Origin: Demequina iriomotensis
Lineage (GTDB): Bacteria > Actinomycetota > Actinomycetes > Actinomycetales > Demequinaceae
DNA: 64,000 nt
NCBI RefSeq assembly: GCF_000971395.1
Contig: NZ_BBME01000012.1
Location: forward strand, 1 to 64,000
Direction: 5' to 3'
The notes under the pieces were generated by a model. The model worked only from the letters and a program-made list of their open reading frames with translations. It was not told the origin of the DNA and did not search any database. Below, in pieces: positions 14,248 to 37,901 of the stretch (position 1 is its first letter; the number at the start of each line of letters is the position of its first letter). The position numbers and the translations under genes are program-made.

Positions 14248-15363
14248 TCAGCCTTCGGGCGCGTCGACCACCTTGCGCATCCAGCCGTGGGGGTCCTCCG
14301 CGCGGCCGTACTGGAGGTCGGTGAGGCGGGCGAGCACCGCATCGGCCACCGACTCGCCTTCCCGCGACGGCACCGCGACGTCGAAGTCGTCGGAGACCAG
14401 GCGCGCGATCGGCGTGACCACCGCGGCGGTGCCGCAGGCGAACAGCTCGACGATCGCGCCCGACTCGAGCCCCTCGAGGATCTCCGTCAGCGCGAGGTCG
14501 CGCTCCTCGACCTCGCGGCCCTCGTCGCGCAGCAGCGTGAGGATCGAGTCGCGCGTGACGCCCGGGAGGATCGTGCCGGTCAGGCGCGGGGTCACGATGC
14601 CCCCGTCGGCGCGCACCGCGATGACGTTCATGCCGCCGAGCTCCTCGACGTACGTGTCCTCCTTGGCGTCGAGGAACAGCACCTGCTGGCAGCCGTGCTC
14701 CTTCGCCTCACGCTGGGGAAGCATGCTCGCTGCATAGTTGCCCGCCGTCTTCGCCTCGCCCGTGCCGCCGGGGTTGGCGCGGTGGTAGCCGCGCGACACC
14801 CAGATGGCGACGCCGTCGCCCTCGGTGGACAGGTAGGCGCCGACGGGGCTCGCGGTCACCAGGAAGTCGACCTCGTGCGCGGGCTGCACCAGCAGGCTCG
14901 GCTCCGTCGCGATGACGAACGGCCGCAGGTACAGGCTCGCCCCCGGCGTGCCGGGCACCCAGTTCTGGTCCGCGGCGATCACACCCTCGATCGCGGCGAG
15001 GAAGTCCTGCTCGCTCACCTCGGGAAGCGCCATGCGGCGGCAGCTCGCGGCCAGGCGTGCCGCGTTGGCCTCGGGGCGGAACAGCCAGATCGAGCCGTCC
15101 TCGTGACGGTAGGCCTTGAGCCCCTCGAAGGCCTGCTGCGCGTAGTGCAGCACCGCCGCACCGGGGTGCATGGGCAGCGGCGACAGGGCGACGATGCGGC
15201 GGTCGGCCCACCCCTCGCCGTCGCGCCACGTCGCGCGCGCCATGTGATCCGTGAAGACCTTGCCGAAGACGGGGTTCTCCATCGCGATCCACCGCTCCTC
15301 GGCGGACGCCGGGTGGCGGTTCGGGATGACGGTGAACGATGCGGTGAGGGCCTGCGTCTCCAT
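14248..15363 (-). CDS. branched-chain amino acid aminotransferase (paralogue 1)
   Basis: This 371-residue PLP enzyme of fold type IV transfers amino groups between branched-chain amino acids and 2-oxoglutarate. The lysine that binds PLP is Lys205 in GGTGEAKTAGNYA, and YAQQAFEGLKAY and EELGGMNVIAV are characteristic. It is about 50 percent alike by eye to the second copy at 28754-29863, which sits beside leuB. The ATG at 15363 follows -10 TAGGCT (15370-15375) by 6 nt, so the transcript is probably leaderless. Which of the two copies is the main biosynthetic IlvE cannot be told from sequence; this one may serve catabolism or another 2-keto acid. Confidence 0.85.
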   Translation of the reverse strand: METQALTASFTVIPNRHPASAEERWIAMENPVFGKVFTDHMARATWRDGEGWADRRIVALSPLPMHPGAAVLHYAQQAFEGLKAYRHEDGSIWLFRPEANAARLAASCRRMALPEVSEQDFLAAIEGVIAADQNWVPGTPGASLYLRPFVIATEPSLLVQPAHEVDFLVTASPVGAYLSTEGDGVAIWVSRGYHRANPGGTGEAKTAGNYAASMLPQREAKEHGCQQVLFLDAKEDTYVEELGGMNVIAVRADGGIVTPRLTGTILPGVTRDSILTLLRDEGREVEERDLALTEILEGLESGAIVELFACGTAAVVTPIARLVSDDFDVAVPSREGESVADAVLARLTDLQYGRAEDPHGWMRKVVDAPEG

Positions 15364-15372
15364 GCGCCGAGC

Positions 15373-15744
15373 CTAGCCCCGCGGGACCAGCGGGAGCCGC
15401 GCGGCGATGTCGGCGACCGCGTCGAGGGTGCCGTCGGCGATCGCCCACACCAAGTCGAACGCCTGGGCTTGGCTCAGCTGGACGCGCTGTCCGTTGAACC
15501 CGATGAATACGACCGTCGCGAGCCATCCGAGACGCTTGTTTCCGTCCGCCAATGCGTGGTTCTTCACGATCGAGTGCAGGAGGGCCGCGGCCTTGAGCTC
15601 AAGCGATGGGTATGCGTCGACGCCCATCAGCGTTGTCGCGGGTCGCGCAAGCGCGGATTCGAGCAGTCCCGCGTCCCGCACCGGGCCGAGTCCCGCGAGG
15701 CGCCCCATCTCGAGGAGCTCATCGAGCTCGATGTAGCCGGTCAC
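15373..15744 (-). CDS. Doc-family (Fic fold) toxin
   Basis: The 123-residue protein has the Doc signature HALADGNKR at 63-71 (Fic core HxFx(D/E)GNxR with Ala in place of Phe). Doc proteins phosphorylate EF-Tu and stop translation. The GTG start at 15744 lies 3 bp after the stop of the small RHH gene, the usual antitoxin-then-toxin order. Its stop overlaps the -10 of the downstream aminotransferase gene. The family call is firm; toxicity is inferred from pairing and motif. Confidence 0.82.
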   Translation of the reverse strand: MTGYIELDELLEMGRLAGLGPVRDAGLLESALARPATTLMGVDAYPSLELKAAALLHSIVKNHALADGNKRLGWLATVVFIGFNGQRVQLSQAQAFDLVWAIADGTLDAVADIAARLPLVPRG

Positions 15745-15747
15745 CGG

Positions 15748-15954
15748 TCACTCCCGGCCCAGGCGCTCGAGGGTCTCGCTCCACTCGCTCAACGCCTCAT
15801 CGGTCAAGTTCGCGAGCCGCTGGCGCCGCGTCAGCTTGTCAGCACGCTCGAGCACCGCACGCCGAACGACCTCCTGCCGCGACAGACCCTCCTCCCGTGC
15901 GAGGAGTTCGAGGGCTGCTTCAAGTGCTGAATCCGTACGCAATGTCATCGCCAT
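15748..15954 (-). CDS. ribbon-helix-helix antitoxin for Doc
   Basis: The small protein (68 residues from the ATG at 15954) begins MAMTLRTDSALEAALELLAREEGLSRQEVVRRAV, a ribbon-helix-helix DNA-binding domain with a short beta strand and two helices, followed by an acidic-amphipathic C-terminal part likely to wrap the toxin. A GTG at 15963 or an ATG at 15948 are alternative starts; there is no Shine-Dalgarno. It should neutralise Doc and repress its own promoter through the repeat at 15959-15982. Confidence 0.78.
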   Translation of the reverse strand: MAMTLRTDSALEAALELLAREEGLSRQEVVRRAVLERADKLTRRQRLANLTDEALSEWSETLERLGRE

Positions 15955-15958
15955 GCGC

Positions 15959-15982
15959 ACCACGGTATCACCGTGGTATCAC
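15959..15982. promoter_or_regulatory. operator of the Doc toxin-antitoxin operon
   Basis: Perfect inverted repeat ACCACGGT (15959-15966) / ACCGTGGT (15970-15977) and a direct repeat GGTATCAC at 15964-15971 and 15975-15982, an 11-bp period that puts both on one DNA face. It covers the antitoxin start region, as expected for RHH autorepression. Confidence 0.65.
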
Positions 15983-28753: not shown

Positions 28754-29863
28754 TCAGAGGATGCGGTGCATCCAGCCGTACGTGTCCTCGGCGCGGCCGT
28801 ACTGGATGTCGAGCAGGCGCTGGCGGGTCGCGAGGGTGATCGGGCCAGCGTCGCCCGAGCCGACCGTGATGTCAAACTCCTCCGCGCCGATGCGGCCGAC
28901 CGGCGTGATGAGCGCCGCCGTGCCGCACGCGAAGATCTCCGCGATCTCGCCGGACTCGATGCCCTCGCGCAGCTCGGCGAGGGTGATGTCGCGCTCGACC
29001 ACCTTGAGGTTCTGGTCCTCGAGCAGCTGGATGATCGACGAGCGCGTCACGCCCTCGAGGATGTTGCCGTTGATGATCGGCGTGAGCACGGTGCCGTCCT
29101 GCTGGACCGCGAAGACGTTCATGCCGCCCAGCTCCTCGAGCACCGTGTTGGTGCGCGCGTCCAGGAAGAGCACCTGGTCGTAGCCCCGCTCGGACGCGCC
29201 GATCTGCGGGCGCAGCGCCGCGGCGTAGTTGCCGCCGCACTTGGCCGCGCCGGTGCCGCCGGGGCCCGCGCGGTGGAAGTCACGCTCGACCCAGATCGAC
29301 ACAGGCTTGACGCCGCCCTTGAAGTAGGGGCCGGACGGCGACGCGATGAGCAGGTACTCGACGCGCTTGGAGGGGCGCAGGCCGAGGAACACGTCGGTCG
29401 CGATGAGGAACGGGCGCAGGTAGAGCGAGGTCTCGGGCTCGGTGGGCGTCCAGGCGTGGTCGAGCTCGACCAGGGCGTGGAGCGAGGCCATGAAGTCCTC
29501 GGTCGGCAGCTCGGGGAGTGCCAGGCGCCACGCGGAGCGCTGGAGGCGCTCGGCATTCTTCTCGGGACGGAACGTGCGCACGGAGCCATCGGCCCAGCGG
29601 TACGCCTTGAGGCCCTCGAAGACCTCCTGCGCGTAGTGCAACACCGAGGCGGCGGGGTCGAGCAGGAGCGGGCCGTAGGGCTCGACGCGGCGGTCGGTCC
29701 AGCCCTCGTCGGCGGTCCACGTGACGCGGGCCATGTGGTCGGTGAAGCGCGTGCCGAAGGCGAGGTCCTTGAGCCGCTCGGCGCGCTCGGCGTCGGTGGC
29801 GGGGTCGGGGTTGCGGACGACGCGGAAGGCCTCCGCGGTGGACGATGCAGCGGTGTCGGTCAC
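28754..29863 (-). CDS. ilvE: branched-chain amino acid aminotransferase (paralogue 2, beside leuB)
   Basis: The 369-residue PLP enzyme catalyses the last step of valine, leucine and isoleucine synthesis. The PLP lysine is Lys208 in GGTGAAKCGGNYA; LHYAQEVFEGLKAY and EELGGMNVFAV are family hallmarks. The GTG start at 29863 follows AGGAAGG. It lies downstream of leuB, separated by a strong hairpin (29903-29947). Its place next to leuB makes it the better candidate for the biosynthetic IlvE than the copy at 14248-15363. Confidence 0.88.
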   Translation of the reverse strand: MTDTAASSTAEAFRVVRNPDPATDAERAERLKDLAFGTRFTDHMARVTWTADEGWTDRRVEPYGPLLLDPAASVLHYAQEVFEGLKAYRWADGSVRTFRPEKNAERLQRSAWRLALPELPTEDFMASLHALVELDHAWTPTEPETSLYLRPFLIATDVFLGLRPSKRVEYLLIASPSGPYFKGGVKPVSIWVERDFHRAGPGGTGAAKCGGNYAAALRPQIGASERGYDQVLFLDARTNTVLEELGGMNVFAVQQDGTVLTPIINGNILEGVTRSSIIQLLEDQNLKVVERDITLAELREGIESGEIAEIFACGTAALITPVGRIGAEEFDITVGSGDAGPITLATRQRLLDIQYGRAEDTYGWMHRIL

Positions 29864-29970: not shown

Positions 29971-31029
29971 CTAGCCGCGGATGCGGGCGGCGATCGCGTC
30001 GCCCACCTCGGAGGTGGAGCGCGGGCCGTTGCCTTCGGCTCCGGAGGCGACCTTGGCGGCGGCATCGGCGGCGACCGCGTCCTCGACCTTCTGGGCGAGG
30101 TCCTTGTGACCGAGGAAGTCGAGCATCATGCCGACGGACAGGACGGTCGCGGACGGGTCCGCGATGCCCTGACCCGCGATGTCGGGAGCCGATCCGTGCA
30201 CGGGCTCGAACATCGACGGTCCGGTCTTGTCGGGGTTGACGTTGCCGGACGCCGCGAGGCCGATGCCGCCGGAGATCGCCGCTGCCTCGTCGGTGAGGAT
30301 GTCTCCGAAGAGGTTGTCGGTGACGATGACGTCGAACGATGCGGGGGCCGTGACGAGCTTGATGGTCGCCGCGTCGACGTGCAGGTAGTCCCACGTGACG
30401 TCCGGGAACTCGGGTGCGACGGCCTCGACCGTGCGGCGCCACAGGTGGCCGGCGTGGACCAGCACGTTGTGCTTGTGCACCAGCGTGACGTGCTTGCGCG
30501 CGCGGCCCTGGGCGACGGAGAACGCGTAGCGGACCACGCGCTCGACGCCGTGGCGGGTGTTGACCGAGACCTCGGTCGCGATCTCGTGCGGGGTGTCGAC
30601 GCGCAGCGCGCCGCCGTTGCCCACGTACGGACCCTCGGTGCCCTCGCGGACCACCACGAAGTCGATGTCGCCGGGCTCGCTCAGCGGCGAGACCTCGCCC
30701 GGGTACAGGCGCGACGGACGCAGGTTGACGTACTGGTCGAGCTCGAAGCGGAGCTTGAGCAGCAGGCCGCGCTCGAGGACGCCGGACGGCACGGTCGGGT
30801 CGCCGATCGCGCCCAGCAGGATGACGTCGTGGCCCTTGATCGCCTCGAGGTCCGCGTCGGTGAGCGTCTCCCCCGTCGCGTGCCAGCGCTTCGCACCGAG
30901 GTCGAACTCGGTGGTCTCGAACGTGATGTCGGTGCCCTCGGTCGCGGCGGCGAGGCACTTGAGCCCCTGCGCGACGACCTCCGGGCCGATGCCGTCGCCG
31001 GCGACTACTGCGAGGCGGTAGGTGGTCAT
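29971..31029 (-). CDS. leuB: 3-isopropylmalate dehydrogenase
   Basis: The 352-residue enzyme oxidatively decarboxylates 3-isopropylmalate with NAD in leucine synthesis. It begins [15 protein letters not shown] and has the substrate-loop arginines in [20 protein letters not shown], the Lys in TLVHKHNVL, the metal aspartates in [15 protein letters not shown] and the NAD-site [17 protein letters not shown] at 31029. leuC and leuD are not nearby. Expression may extend weakly into ilvE past the terminator. Confidence 0.92.
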
Positions 31030-31117
31030 CGGTTCTCCCTCGGTGGATCGGTGGCGCCGCGCCCGTCGTCGGGTCCGGCGGCTCTCCGCTCATCCTAGGG
31101 GAAGTGTCCACATGTTG

Positions 31118-31150
31118 GGGAATCCGTCTCGCATCGCGAGACGGATTCCC
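31118..31150. terminator. strong hairpin terminator
   Basis: GGGAATCCGTCTCGC (31118-31132) and GCGAGACGGATTCCC (31136-31150) are perfect 15-bp arms with only a 3-nt loop. It lies 8 bp past the stop of the minus-strand exported protein gene and before leuB. Confidence 0.75.
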
Positions 31151-31158
31151 TCGGGTGG

Positions 31159-31932
31159 CTACTCCTCGACGTCGAATGCCAACGACTCAACCACCGGCGC
31201 GACGAGCGCCATGTAGTCGTCGTAGGCGACCCGCTCCACCGGGACGGCCGCCTCGACGGCGATCACTCCGGCGGGACCATCAAGCAGGTACAGCCTGACG
31301 GGCGACCTCGCCGTGATGGTTCGATGGAGATGCGTCCCGTGGTCGTCGATGAGGTAGGCGACGCCTGGCACCCCCGCACTGGCCGGGCACGTGTCCGTCC
31401 ATCCTTCCGCGAGCGCGAGGTCGAGCCGGTAGCCCGACAGGCCCCCGAGCTCGACCCGCTCGTCGGAGACCACGCCGACGCCGTCCTGTGCGACCAACGC
31501 GCCACGGATCGAGGCGAGGTCCTTGCCGACCTCGGGATCTGCGGTGTCGCCGCACGGCAGGGTCGGGATCAGAGGCTCCGCGAAGACGGTGATCGTGGGC
31601 CGCACCGGTGCCCCCGGCGCGATCCACTCGGGCAGACGCAGGATGACGTCCCCCTCGGGCAACCGCGTGGTCGACCAGCCGTCGGGGAGCTCGTACGAGA
31701 CCCCTAGCGCGCCCCGTTCCGACGCGACCACGCCGGCGGCGTCAGGAGGCACGGGGACGACGTAGCCGGTCGACGGGTCCCACAGCCCGACGCAGATCGC
31801 AGCCGGTTCGCACGGCGGGTGCGGCACCGTGCCCGCGGCGGCACACGCACCGGACACCACGACGATGCCGCCGATGGCGGTCACGAGGAGCATGGCGTCG
31901 CGTACGCCTCGCGCGGAACAGAGGATGGACAT
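31159..31932 (-). CDS. secreted or lipid-anchored protein of unknown function
   Basis: The 257-residue protein has an N-terminal hydrophobic signal (about 13-32, DAMLLVTAIGGIVVVSGACAAAG). The cysteine after SGA could be a weak lipobox, otherwise it is a signal peptide or anchor. The mature part contains further cysteines (PPCEPAAICVG, PCGD, TCPAS) and no recognised domain. ATG at 31932 with a strong AAGGAGA ribosome site. It is divergent from the SARP-NTPase gene with GTATG direct repeats between them, so it is a likely target of that regulator. Confidence 0.68.
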   Translation of the reverse strand: MSILCSARGVRDAMLLVTAIGGIVVVSGACAAAGTVPHPPCEPAAICVGLWDPSTGYVVPVPPDAAGVVASERGALGVSYELPDGWSTTRLPEGDVILRLPEWIAPGAPVRPTITVFAEPLIPTLPCGDTADPEVGKDLASIRGALVAQDGVGVVSDERVELGGLSGYRLDLALAEGWTDTCPASAGVPGVAYLIDDHGTHLHRTITARSPVRLYLLDGPAGVIAVEAAVPVERVAYDDYMALVAPVVESLAFDVEE

Positions 31933-31973
31933 GGCGGTCTCCTTTCAGATCGCCGCCAGTACACCCGCCCGCC

Positions 31974-32021
31974 GTATGGACACGGTATGTGCGCCCGAGA
32001 GCGCGGTATGCGCGCGGTATG
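31974..32021. promoter_or_regulatory. GTATG direct repeats, candidate SARP binding site
   Basis: GTATG occurs at 31974, 31985, 32006 and 32017: spacings of 11, 21 and 11 bp, on the same DNA face. Three copies extend to CGGTATG. SARP-type winged-helix regulators bind direct repeats with about 11-bp period, and the divergent 4.2-kb gene encodes such a domain. Confidence 0.6.
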
Positions 32022-32038
32022 CGTCGCGACCTCCGTCC

Positions 32039-32067
32039 TTGACCCGCCTTGGGGCGCCGCCGACACT
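32039..32067 (+). promoter_or_regulatory. leaderless promoter of the SARP-NTPase gene
   Basis: TTGACC (32039-32044), a 17-bp spacer and GACACT (32062-32067) end 6 nt before the ATG at 32074, so transcription should start at or next to the A of the start codon. Confidence 0.55.
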
Positions 32068-32073
32068 CGAGGG

Positions 32074-35000
32074 ATGAGGGTCACGGTCCTCGGGGGAAGG
32101 GGCGTCTCGGACGAACCGAGAGTCAGCCCACGCGAACGCGCCGTGCTCGAGGCGCTCCTCGTGAGCCGGCCCAGCGAGGCGAGCGCCGCCTCTCTCGCCG
32201 AGGCGCTCTGGGCTGATGCGCCGCCATCAACATGGGCCAAGCAGCTCCAGGCGTCGATCAGCCGCCTCCGCAAGGCGTATGGCTCCGATGCGATCGTGAC
32301 CGTGGCTCACGGGTACCGCATCGTCCCGCGGCGATCCGGCGGTGGGCTCGAGGTGGACGCGGACGAGTTCGAGGAGGCGATCGAGCGCGCGCGCGAGCTG
32401 GCGGCCGGGCACGAGCATCCGCGCGCCGCGACCATGCTCGAACGCGCCCTCGGTCTGTGGCAGGGCCGGCCGTACGCCGCGCTCGAGGAGTGGCCTCCGG
32501 CGCACGGCGAGGCCGAGCGGCTCAGCGAGCTCCGCGCGGCGGCGGAGGACGACCTGCTCGAGGCGCGGCTGGCTGCCGGGGATCACCGCGCGGTCGCCGA
32601 GCAGGCCGCCGCATTGTGCGCCACCGAGCCGTACCGCGAGCGCCGCTGGCACGCGCTCGCTCTGGCCCAGTACCGCTGCGAGCGCCAGGCCGACTCGCTG
32701 TCCACGGTCCGTCGCGCCCAGCGCCTGCTCATCGAGGAGCTCGGCATCGACCCCGGTGCCTCGCTAGTGAACCTCGAGCAGGCGATCCTTCGGCACGACG
32801 AGGCGCTCCTCGCGGCACCGGCCGCTCGCCCGCCGAGCCCCGACTGCCCGTACAAGGGGCTCGCGGAGTACGAACCCGAGGACGCGGAGCTGTTCTTCGG
32901 ACGCGACGACGACGTCTCGGCCGTCCTCGACACGCTCGAACGCACGCGGTTCGCCACCGTCACAGGACCATCGGGCATCGGAAAGTCCTCGATCCTCCGC
33001 GCAGGCCTGATCCCCGCGTTACGTCGTCGCGGGCTCGCGCCCGTGCTCCTCGATGCGGACGCGACGGCCGCGCGGGCCGTCGAGACCGCCGGCTCGAGGC
33101 CGATCATCGTGGACGACCTCGGCGCTGCCCTGGGCGACCCGGACACCGCAAGCGAGCTGTGCCTCGCGCTCGCGGCGGCCCACGCCGCCGGCGCCCTGGT
33201 ATGCGTCGCGATCCAGTCACGGCACCTCGACGGGTGCGCCGCGCTGCCGTCCCTCGGGCCCCTGGTGACCTCCGGGCTGCACCTGGTCGCTCCCCCGTCC
33301 GCCGACGCCATCAGAGAGGTGATCGAGCAGCCCGCGGTGCAGAGCGGCCTCTCGATCGAGCACGGGCTGGTCGACGTCGTGCTCCACGATGCGTCCCGCG
33401 TGGACTCGGCGCTACCGCTGCTGTCGCACGCACTCGCGGCCACGTGGGAGCGGCGTGACGGCACGACGTTGACGATCGAGGCTTACGAGGCGACCGGCGG
33501 GCTCGCGGGCGCGGTGGCGCGGTCGGCCGAGCGCGTGTTCGGCAACCTCACAGCCGGGCAACGTGAGGAGTGCCGTGCGGTGATGCGGCGGCTCGTCGAC
33601 GTCGACGCCGCGGGCACCGTCGCGCTCCACGCGGCGGACGCCTCCGCCGTCGATGCGACCCAGGCGCGCGCCGAGGCGGTGGCGCGGCTGGTCGCGGCCC
33701 GCCTGCTGGTGGCACGCGCCGACGACTTCCTGCTCGCGCACGAGGCGCTCACACGCGAGTGGCCGCGCCTCAGCACGTGGCTCGACGAGGACGCCGAGAC
33801 GCACCGCCTGGTCGCGCACCTCGCCGCCAGCGCTCGCTCGTGGGATGCGAGCGGCAGGCACGTCGACGACCTCTACCGCGGGTCGCGGCTCGCGGCGGCG
33901 CTCGCCTGGCACGAGGCTACGGCCGACGCGCTCGCGGACGTCGAACGGGACTTCCTCGCGGAGTCCATCGCGCATCGTGACCGGGAGGCCTCTGCCCTCG
34001 CGGAGTCCGCGGCGCGCGACCACCGTGCGCGCCGGTGGGCGCGGGTGCTCGGCGCGGTGGGCGTGGTCGCGGCGATCGCCGCCGTCGTGCTCGGCGGCAT
34101 GGCGATCGCATCGCATCGGGATGCCTCGCGGCAGGCGCACGATGCGATGGTCCAGACCCTCGCGGACGCGGTCTCCGGCCTCGTCGGCTCCTCGCGCGAA
34201 ACCGCCGCGCTGGTCGCGGTCGAGCTCGGCAACACCTGGCCGGACGATCCGCGCACGCGGGCCGCGCTCTTCGACGTGGCCGCCTCGCATCCCGACCTCG
34301 TGCAGGCCGTCGTCACCCCGGGCTCCTCGGGCATCGCGGGGGCGACGGACGGTGCCGGGCGGATCGTCGTCGCCACCGCGGCGGGGCTTGAGGTCCGGGA
34401 TCCGGCGGACCTCACGGTGACGGCGTCCATCGCGGATCCCTCCCCCACGCGCGCCGATCGCGCCGTCGCGGTCGCGGACGACGGCGCCGTCGCGGTGGTG
34501 CTGGCACAGGCCTCCGGCTGCGCCACCGCGACGACCTGCGGGCGTCTGACCTCCTACGACGTCGCGAGCGAAGCCGTGCTCGGCACGGCGGACGCAACGG
34601 TGCCGGGCAGCGCGGATGTCCCGCTCGCGCTCGCGATCTCGCCCGGCGGCGAGGTGGTGGCGACGGTCGGCCAGGGCTCCGGTTCGGTCGAGCTGAGGGA
34701 CGCCACCACGCTCGACGTGCTCCGGACCGTTCCGGGCATCGTCGCATCCGGCGACGATGCCGTGCTCGCGGTCGCCGCGGACGGCTCGTTCCTCGTCGGC
34801 TCGGGCGGCACGATCCGGTCCGTCGATCCCGCCACCGGCCGCATCGTCGCGGCGTGGACCGTCGACCCCGCCGCGACGGGCCTCGGGATCGCGGCGATGA
34901 GCGACGGGCGTGTGCTGACCTCGGGCCCGCTTCACGTCGCGCTGCTCGATCCCGAGAACGGGGAGATCGCCTGGACCGTCACGATCCCATCGGACCAGGA

Positions 35001-36240
35001 GGGCGCGTGCGCCACGATGGCGGCACACCCCTCGACCGGCTTGTACTACTGCGGCGGCTACTTCGGCGAGGTGCAGGAACGGACCCTCGAGCTGGGCGGG
35101 CCCACGCCTCACAGGCTCGACGTCCAGCACGGAGCGACAGGGACCCTCATGACCGCAGGAGGCGACCTGTTCGCGTTCTCCCGCCGCAGCCCCGTGCTCA
35201 CACGCTGGTCGCTCGACCGGGACGGTCCGGTGCACCGGGTGATCGGCACCCCCGGCGACATCATCGGCGACGGCTACCGCTCGGATGGCCAGGCGCTGCT
35301 GCTGTGCCACCTGGAGCAGCCCGACGGGCCGTGCGACTGGAAGGTACGGAACGTCGCACGGGACCGTGTCGAGCGCCACATCGACCTCGTGACGGAAGGC
35401 ACACCCGGCTGGGCGTCGGACGATGCGCTCCTCGCCTACTTCCCCCAGACGAACGACTTCGGGCGCTACGACCTCACCCAGCAGCGCCGGACCCTGACGT
35501 ACCCGATGGGACCGGAGGTGGACGAGAACTTCCGCAGCGGCTCCGGCACGCTGCAGCTCGCCGCCGACCCCGACGGAACCGTGTGGGCCTTCGACCTCGC
35601 GACCGGCGAGCGCGTGGGCCCGACCATCGACGTCGAGGGAGTGGCGTCGCACATCACGACCACTCCGGACGACTCGCTCGTCGCTGTGTCCTCCCACCTC
35701 GCGGGCGGCGGCGTCGGCGCCCAGGTCTTCGATCTCCGGACGGGCGAGGCAGTCTCGCCGTTCGTCGAAGGGCTCGAGAACGCCTCGATCAACGGCGACG
35801 GCCTTGTGGTCGCTCTGGTGGGCCAGATGATCGGCCGCTACACGCAGAAGCTCGAGCCGCTCGACACCTTCGAGGGCTCGCGTGCCGAGATCGGGGCCTT
35901 CCTGTTCGCCGCGGACGGGGATGTGTTCGTCTCGGAAGACCTCGACCAGCACAGCACGATGTACGAGTCTGCGACAGGCGAGCGTGTGGCTGGCCCCTTC
36001 GACTCGAGCGCGCCGTTCGCCTGGCCCGCCTGGCCGCGCCAGGATGGGCTCGAGGTGGCAGTGGACGAGGCGGACGGCATCGGCATCTGGACCCTCGAGC
36101 CCGATGCCCTGCGCGACGCCGCCTGCGCCTCGGCGGGCAGGGACCTCACCGCCGACGAGTGGGACACCTACCTCGCCCCGCTCGGCGACTGGCGCTCGAC
36201 CTGCGGCTTCGGCGACGAGCCGTGCGTCGCGTCGTCCTGA
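32074..36240 (+). CDS. SARP/BTAD-nSTAND NTPase-propeller transmembrane regulator
   Basis: The 1388-residue protein begins with an OmpR/SARP-like winged helix (about 1-90, MRVTVLGGRG..SPRERAVLEALL), a BTAD helical domain (about 95-235) and an NTPase domain with PYKGLAEYEPEDAELFFGRDD and Walker A GPSGIGKSS (about 297-305). After a helical region there is one transmembrane helix (about 655-678) and a C-terminal beta-propeller-like domain (about 700-1388) with repeated GxxVxxxDxxTG motifs and late cysteines. This predicts DNA binding inside and sensing outside the cell. The ATG at 32074 fits a leaderless promoter; longer upstream starts lack support. Confidence 0.82.
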   Translation: MRVTVLGGRGVSDEPRVSPRERAVLEALLVSRPSEASAASLAEALWADAPPSTWAKQLQASISRLRKAYGSDAIVTVAHGYRIVPRRSGGGLEVDADEFEEAIERARELAAGHEHPRAATMLERALGLWQGRPYAALEEWPPAHGEAERLSELRAAAEDDLLEARLAAGDHRAVAEQAAALCATEPYRERRWHALALAQYRCERQADSLSTVRRAQRLLIEELGIDPGASLVNLEQAILRHDEALLAAPAARPPSPDCPYKGLAEYEPEDAELFFGRDDDVSAVLDTLERTRFATVTGPSGIGKSSILRAGLIPALRRRGLAPVLLDADATAARAVETAGSRPIIVDDLGAALGDPDTASELCLALAAAHAAGALVCVAIQSRHLDGCAALPSLGPLVTSGLHLVAPPSADAIREVIEQPAVQSGLSIEHGLVDVVLHDASRVDSALPLLSHALAATWERRDGTTLTIEAYEATGGLAGAVARSAERVFGNLTAGQREECRAVMRRLVDVDAAGTVALHAADASAVDATQARAEAVARLVAARLLVARADDFLLAHEALTREWPRLSTWLDEDAETHRLVAHLAASARSWDASGRHVDDLYRGSRLAAALAWHEATADALADVERDFLAESIAHRDREASALAESAARDHRARRWARVLGAVGVVAAIAAVVLGGMAIASHRDASRQAHDAMVQTLADAVSGLVGSSRETAALVAVELGNTWPDDPRTRAALFDVAASHPDLVQAVVTPGSSGIAGATDGAGRIVVATAAGLEVRDPADLTVTASIADPSPTRADRAVAVADDGAVAVVLAQASGCATATTCGRLTSYDVASEAVLGTADATVPGSADVPLALAISPGGEVVATVGQGSGSVELRDATTLDVLRTVPGIVASGDDAVLAVAADGSFLVGSGGTIRSVDPATGRIVAAWTVDPAATGLGIAAMSDGRVLTSGPLHVALLDPENGEIAWTVTIPSDQEGACATMAAHPSTGLYYCGGYFGEVQERTLELGGPTPHRLDVQHGATGTLMTAGGDLFAFSRRSPVLTRWSLDRDGPVHRVIGTPGDIIGDGYRSDGQALLLCHLEQPDGPCDWKVRNVARDRVERHIDLVTEGTPGWASDDALLAYFPQTNDFGRYDLTQQRRTLTYPMGPEVDENFRSGSGTLQLAADPDGTVWAFDLATGERVGPTIDVEGVASHITTTPDDSLVAVSSHLAGGGVGAQVFDLRTGEAVSPFVEGLENASINGDGLVVALVGQMIGRYTQKLEPLDTFEGSRAEIGAFLFAADGDVFVSEDLDQHSTMYESATGERVAGPFDSSAPFAWPAWPRQDGLEVAVDEADGIGIWTLEPDALRDAACASAGRDLTADEWDTYLAPLGDWRSTCGFGDEPCVASS

Positions 36241-36247
36241 GGCACGG

Positions 36248-36281
36248 CGAAGGGGAGGCCCCGGGCGGGACCTCCCCTTCG
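36248..36281. terminator. bidirectional terminator between the SARP gene and ilvC
   Basis: CGAAGGGGAGG (36248-36258) and CCTCCCCTTCG (36271-36281), perfect 11-bp arms, 12-nt loop, between two convergent genes. Confidence 0.7.
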
Positions 36282-36302
36282 CGTCGGCTCAGGTGAGCGG
36301 GA

Positions 36303-37901
<1,599 letters not shown>

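Follow-up and report, generated by a model that had tools for sequence, protein, structure and literature searches.

Four copies of GTATG lie on one strand between a gene for a large regulator of the SARP type and a divergent gene for an exported protein in Demequina iriomotensis. Which protein reads these repeats, and which of the two genes is controlled through them? Work on SARPs has treated them as cytoplasmic switches of antibiotic clusters, and to our knowledge it is mostly unknown what they sense. We analyzed a stretch of 64,000 nucleotides (contig NZ_BBME01000012.1, referred to as the window; its genome is coded G000). We consider it probable that the repeats serve as operator for the adjacent large SARP, which would cross the membrane and act on the exported gene and on itself. 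The elements concerned are, in window coordinates:

31159..31932, minus strand: divergent gene for an exported protein of 257 aa with a weak PsbP/LpqN-like fold
31958..31963, minus strand: TGTACT, putative -10 hexamer of the divergent exported gene; a gap of exactly 8 bp separates it from the repeat 1 heptamer (CATACGG-8-TGTACT)
31974..31978, plus strand: repeat 1, within CCGTATG; as CATACGG, the repeat closest to the divergent gene
31985..31989, plus strand: repeat 2, within CGGTATG, 11 bp after repeat 1
32006..32010, plus strand: repeat 3, within CGGTATG, 21 bp after repeat 2
32017..32021, plus strand: repeat 4, within CGGTATG, 11 bp after repeat 3
32039..32044, plus strand: -35 element of the regulator, TTGACC; 21 of 25 homologues have TTGAC at precisely -35 relative to the start codon
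32062..32067, plus strand: -10 element GACACT of the regulator; NANNNT stands at -12 in 22 of 25 homologues, and the leaderless start follows 6 bp on
32074..36240, plus strand: regulator of 1388 aa, with wHTH, BTAD, nSTAND1 NTPase, transmembrane helix and double propeller
32353..32790, plus strand: BTAD domain, residues 94-239 (E 1.7e-31)
32848..33861, plus strand: nSTAND1 NTPase, residues 259-596 (E 2.2e-81)
34054..34110, plus strand: transmembrane helix predicted from hydropathy, residues 661-679
34297..36093, plus strand: predicted extracytoplasmic tandem WD40-type propeller, about residues 742-1340, from a structure model, Foldseek and cysteine pairs

The four repeat starts (31974, 31985, 32006 and 32017, plus strand), their spacing of 11/21/11 bp, the 1388-codon regulator gene (32074-36240, plus) and the divergent open reading frame (31159-31932, minus) are as the original prediction had described them. 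By itself, the pentamer GTATG is not enriched in the window (22 copies versus 24.6 expected). The paired form GTATG-N6-GTATG occurs twice at <=1 mismatch (0.31 expected), both times in the array and both times perfect. The genome search for this pair that had been proposed as a check returned three exact pairs in 3.16 Mb, two in the array and one on contig 17, and GGTATG-N5-GGTATG with one mismatch led, across the whole genome, to the same three places and nothing more. A DNA hairpin in the intergenic region was also considered and dropped, as its folding is no better than that of shuffles (z 1.90, in the direction of weaker folding).

A GGTAT pair with 11-bp spacing is also contained in the 16-mer GGTATCACCGTGGTAT at window positions 15964-15979, just upstream of a gene pair (15373-15979, minus strand) that we take to be an RHH antitoxin gene and a Doc-like gene. 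The same 16-mer occurs in G005, G010, G016, G022, and G030. As candidate sites of the regulator these pairs were set aside, being probable operators of the RHH-Doc operon, and their origin is apparently unrelated to that of the array.

The set of regulator homologues was drawn from 59 relatives, from 248 genomes of the order, and from 59 genomes of family f17 and 150 of family f19; it comprises 25 genes, which belong to six families. Homologues with poorer scores (E above 1e-60 in the order, above 1e-90 in f17 and f19, and weak matches among the 59 relatives) were not aligned; the set represents those homologues of the order that have the best E-values rather than the whole phylum. Among the genomes compared, the closest named one is Demequina maris NBRC 109392, whose regulator is 69% identical. 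Within the upstream regions (112 bp each), identical 6-mers exactly 11 bp apart were found in 22 of 25 cases, against a mean of 0.9 and a maximum of 6 of 25 for the same test on shuffles; spacings foreign to the array yield at most 3 of 25. Identical-pentamer triads spaced 21 or 22 and then 11 occur in 15 of the 25 regions, and none was found at 13 other gaps. The most common form of the array is repeat-21/22-repeat-11-repeat above a leaderless TTGAC-N17-NANNNT promoter, where the distal repeat was picked by eye and a degenerate copy was accepted for G030c. In G064, for which an abnormal start codon (AGG) was used, the array is missing from its expected position; a single clear repeat is seen in G247b. 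According to excerpts of PMC10936776, the repeats of SARP sites are 11 or 22 bp apart, with the 3' repeat 8 bp from the -10 element. The original prediction had recognized this spacing as that of SARP binding sites, in good agreement with the excerpts of PMC10936776 and PMC5930380; it is kept before homologous regulators in other families, with a middle gap of 21 instead of 22 bp in the window.

Sequence comparison makes it very probable that the array serves as SARP operator for the regulator itself: the letters of the repeats drift together and track changes in the recognition helix. The two proximal repeats of an array have an identity of 0.906, versus 0.748 for permuted partners (maximum of 2000 permutations: 0.833). 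Their letters read GGTATG in most Demequina, GATATC in G115a, GGTGTC in G191a/b and GGTACTC in G115b and mostly also in G344. In the AfsR structure, as described in excerpts of the publication, residue 88 contacts a base and residue 92, an arginine, reads a T. The co-variation, which was spotted post hoc and is based on a small number of changes, concerns the position of base-contacting AfsR-T88, where Thr is present only in G115b and G344, those with arrays ending in C (GGTAC). The position of AfsR-R92 is occupied by Arg in 23 of 24 homologues, and the third repeat base is T in every tabulated array; residues were mapped to AfsR numbering by hand from the regulator-AfsR alignment. If the T of GGTAT is the one read by AfsR-R92, the analogy suggests that the SARP domain faces the regulator gene; so mapped, and unlike AfsR on afsS, it would be reversed relative to the exported gene.

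Sites of this kind are not confined to the array. The contig-17 pair, the only other GTATG-N6-GTATG of the genome, precedes a gene for a 216-residue secreted protein. Homologues of this protein in G010 and G019 have the pair as well, and the one in G053 (46%) is encoded by the divergent neighbor of the G053 regulator. A second secreted family with paired sites was found in G030 and G016. At L090 and L069 (G019 and G016), paired repeats stand before secreted-protein genes and the regulator is missing. Neither G016 nor G019 yielded a regulator homologue (E <= 0.001) or a strong nSTAND1 match; strong matches alone were used, since the nSTAND1 family search is noisy and at a loose threshold was positive in 13 of 14 control genomes. 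In these two genomes the regulator may have been lost, or another SARP may be used.

The sited secreted genes of G016 and G019, together with the GGTAT pair at 11-bp spacing in a probable antitoxin operator, would fit a different reading, in which the array is bound by some transcription factor other than the adjacent regulator. However, the array stays with the regulator across families, and its letters shift in step with the recognition helix; we thus regard a foreign binder as quite improbable. Even less can be said for a chance or low-complexity artefact, to which we assign next to no weight: the lack of enrichment of the pentamer in the window is what it would lead one to expect, but it is contradicted by the 22 of 25 promoters with spaced 6-mers where shuffles predict 0.9.

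Which gene the operator controls can be approached through promoter geometry. The leaderless promoter that had been proposed for the regulator is real, running from TTGACC over 17 bp to GACACT and, 6 bp on, to the ATG at 32074. TTGACC-N17-GACACT is the sole match of its kind in the window at <=1 mismatch (0.03 expected), and such strong -35 and -10 elements suggest that this promoter could fire without an activator. The 8-bp SARP rule does not hold here; the array stands above the -35 element, in homologues at distances that fall into classes approximately one helical turn apart. In having CGGTATG-N4 repeats upstream of the regulator's -35, the array resembles that of PimR-type SARP-LAL regulators, for which excerpts of PMC5930380 describe CGGCAAG heptamers, 4-bp spacers and an operator upstream of the -35 without overlap. 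PimR differs in its other ATP-binding half and its reported target, a separate PAS-LuxR regulator gene, and those excerpts do not describe it as membrane-bound.

In the exported direction, by contrast, the SARP rule holds: 8 bp separate the 3' repeat from a -10-like hexamer. The 26 sites compared in this direction consist of five separate sites and 21 of the 25 regulator promoters, all except those of G064, G247b, G191a, and G191b. NANNNT stands at offset 8 in 10 of the 26, whereas none of the 25 other offsets has it in more than 3, and T1, A2, and T6 sum to 40 at offset 8 versus at most 22 elsewhere. For G260, G167, and G379, the position of the -10 element is fixed because the sequence shows the divergent exported gene to be leaderless; here the gap equals 8. 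G344 has the same 8-bp arrangement before a 57-codon open reading frame that does not look exported. The rule fails in G030b, G024, G025, and most f17 members.

Might the array serve the divergent exported gene only, the regulator's strong leaderless promoter being constitutive and merely adjacent? The gap on the exported side is fixed at 8 bp where recognizable, further secreted genes with such sites lie apart from the regulator, and the -35 of the regulator promoter is near consensus in 21 of 25 homologues, all of which would suit this idea. Yet in G191a, G191b, and G247b no divergent partner was found, and the repeats (three clear ones in G191a/b, one clear pentamer in G247b) are positioned as elsewhere with respect to the regulator's -35; of these loci, G191a and G247b are arranged head-to-tail behind another regulator gene. 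Since repeats are kept in these partnerless loci, an effect on the regulator is likely, and the spacing of the -35 distances by one helical turn likewise speaks against sole service of the exported gene. We rate the latter as unlikely, albeit the most serious competitor among the alternatives, and autoregulation via the repeats as likely. The original prediction had called both autoregulation and control of the divergent gene plausible; the partnerless loci and the 8-bp placement argue for both, with the amendment that the tightest geometry belongs to the divergent exported gene and not to the regulator.

The regulator itself shows a BTAD domain, over the cut-off, after an N-terminal wHTH homologous to AfsR. 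The AfsR chain matches its N-terminal SARP domain at E 1e-26, while Trans_reg_C scores 20.8 bits, below the cut-off of 26.2. A Walker A sequence, GPSGIGKS, is present. All of 24 homologues have one transmembrane helix with more positive charge on its N side, as expected from the positive-inside rule; G053 was left out of this count and of the tree, its regulator frame being broken near residue 50 in the assembly (L043, near 6031). The C-terminal part folds as a tandem propeller in the structure model (pLDDT 88, pTM 0.85), and its Foldseek matches include WD40 double propellers and Apaf-1 (3shf/3sfz), the latter at low TM-scores of 0.33-0.36. Cysteines 979 and 993 are both present in 17 of 17 alignment rows, Cys 1351 is found in 16 of 16 and Cys 1377 in 17 of 17 (all rows with a residue there), and Cys 1078 and 1087 occur together in the same three rows; Cys 816 and 822 are less strict (6 and 8 of 17). 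Such pairs are the pattern that extracytoplasmic disulphides would be expected to give. Both the charge distribution around the helix and the modeled propeller with its cysteines are consistent with the claimed transmembrane helix and extracellular propeller, and the regulator is predicted to span the membrane. A plasmid search gave no match to it.

We therefore read the repeats as a real, conserved operator of a predicted membrane-spanning SARP with a cognate exported partner. This reading draws on operator conservation, concerted drift, recognition-helix co-variation, promoter geometry, predicted topology and frequent pairing with exported proteins, all of them comparative evidence; DNA binding, activation rather than repression, the nucleotide switch and the signal or ligand are what we infer from it. 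The extracytoplasmic double propeller would sense an outside signal, which would shift the nucleotide state of the cytoplasmic nSTAND1 switch; the switch would then free or oligomerize the N-terminal SARP domains. These may occupy neighboring 11-bp repeats along a single face of the DNA and from this position act on two promoters: that of the divergent exported gene, whose -10-like hexamer is 8 bp from the end of the array (the distance seen at known SARP promoters), and the leaderless one of the regulator. A SARP whose sensor apparently lies outside the cell, with a defined operator and a single cognate exported gene, would be a small testable system for how a STAND NTPase carries a signal across the membrane to DNA. 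The conserved operator offers a direct route to the regulator's targets, and candidate ligands are found in the repeat-type exported proteins.

In the open-access literature, a scope that excludes most subscription journals, we found no membrane-bound or propeller-bearing SARP. Apaf-1 consists of a STAND NTPase followed by a double WD40 propeller, an order that the regulator shares; Apaf-1 is eukaryotic, whereas here the membrane is predicted to lie between NTPase and propeller. In its predicted topology the regulator resembles transmembrane transcription regulators of the ToxR/CadC type, which have a cytoplasmic wHTH, a single transmembrane helix and an extracytoplasmic sensor, but it carries a BTAD and an NTPase between wHTH and helix. 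A term search in the main text of a survey of such regulators (PMC10269533) returned no SARP, Actinobacteria or propeller. AfsR of Streptomyces coelicolor (PDB 8hvr, 8k60, 8jke), a large SARP, has a homologous N-terminal SARP domain, followed as here by a nucleotide-binding STAND-type module, and binds 11-bp direct repeats with the 3' repeat 8 bp from the -10 (excerpts of PMC10936776). Large SARPs carry NB-ARC/NOD plus TPR, or a LAL half, according to excerpts of PMC10972967. The AfsR architecture is not that of our regulator: AfsR has NOD and TPR, and no propeller is described in the excerpts, whereas nSTAND1, a predicted transmembrane helix and a predicted extracytoplasmic double propeller are combined here with a paired exported protein.

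The exported partners are diverse. "Exported" denotes a hydropathy call (plus a Shine-Dalgarno match in the first pass) and not the output of a signal-peptide predictor; Pfam and NCBIfam gave no usable family for these proteins. That of the window (model pLDDT 57; PsbP/LpqN matches at E 1e-4 to 7e-4) has no clear internal repeat, its score being reached by 6 of 120 shuffles. A divergent exported open reading frame was found for 19 of the 25 regulators, and 10 of these 19 proteins are made of short tandem peptide repeats, unmatched by any shuffle (e.g., YEPMxGGVPxYA and PYRDFAERLTPADLAP). Repeat-type proteins lie beside regulators at L038:16861-17412, L039:8824-9336, L042:5756-6265, L099:5811-6152, and L097:923-1270. 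Directly downstream of a repeat-type gene and on the same strand, L042:4842-5486 (G024) encodes a protein like the exported one of the window.

Within Demequina, the regulators form three clades (support 100/100), each with its own exported family, and the repeat families of clades B and C have a common peptide motif. The slot between leuB and ilvC holds the module in 7 of the 7 Demequina genomes where the module was found, with type A in G000 and G265, type B in G024 and G025, and type C in G022 and G010; in G030 (D. maris) all three types stand side by side in tandem. In a speculative extension, which we rate as unlikely, the module would be a self-contained signalling locus: the exported protein, or a product derived from it, would be the ligand of the propeller, and the SARP array would close a feedback loop. 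The short tandem peptides of ten of the 19 partners would fit this idea, as would the alternation of three module types in one slot, resembling interchangeable signal-receptor types; a literature search for pheromone precursors with tandem repeats brought nothing relevant. The slot corresponds to positions 29971-37334 of the window and to the loci L038, L039, L040, L041, L042, and L092 of relatives. The window further contains two genes of similar kind, 14248-15363 and 28754-29863 (-), presumably branched-chain aminotransferases.
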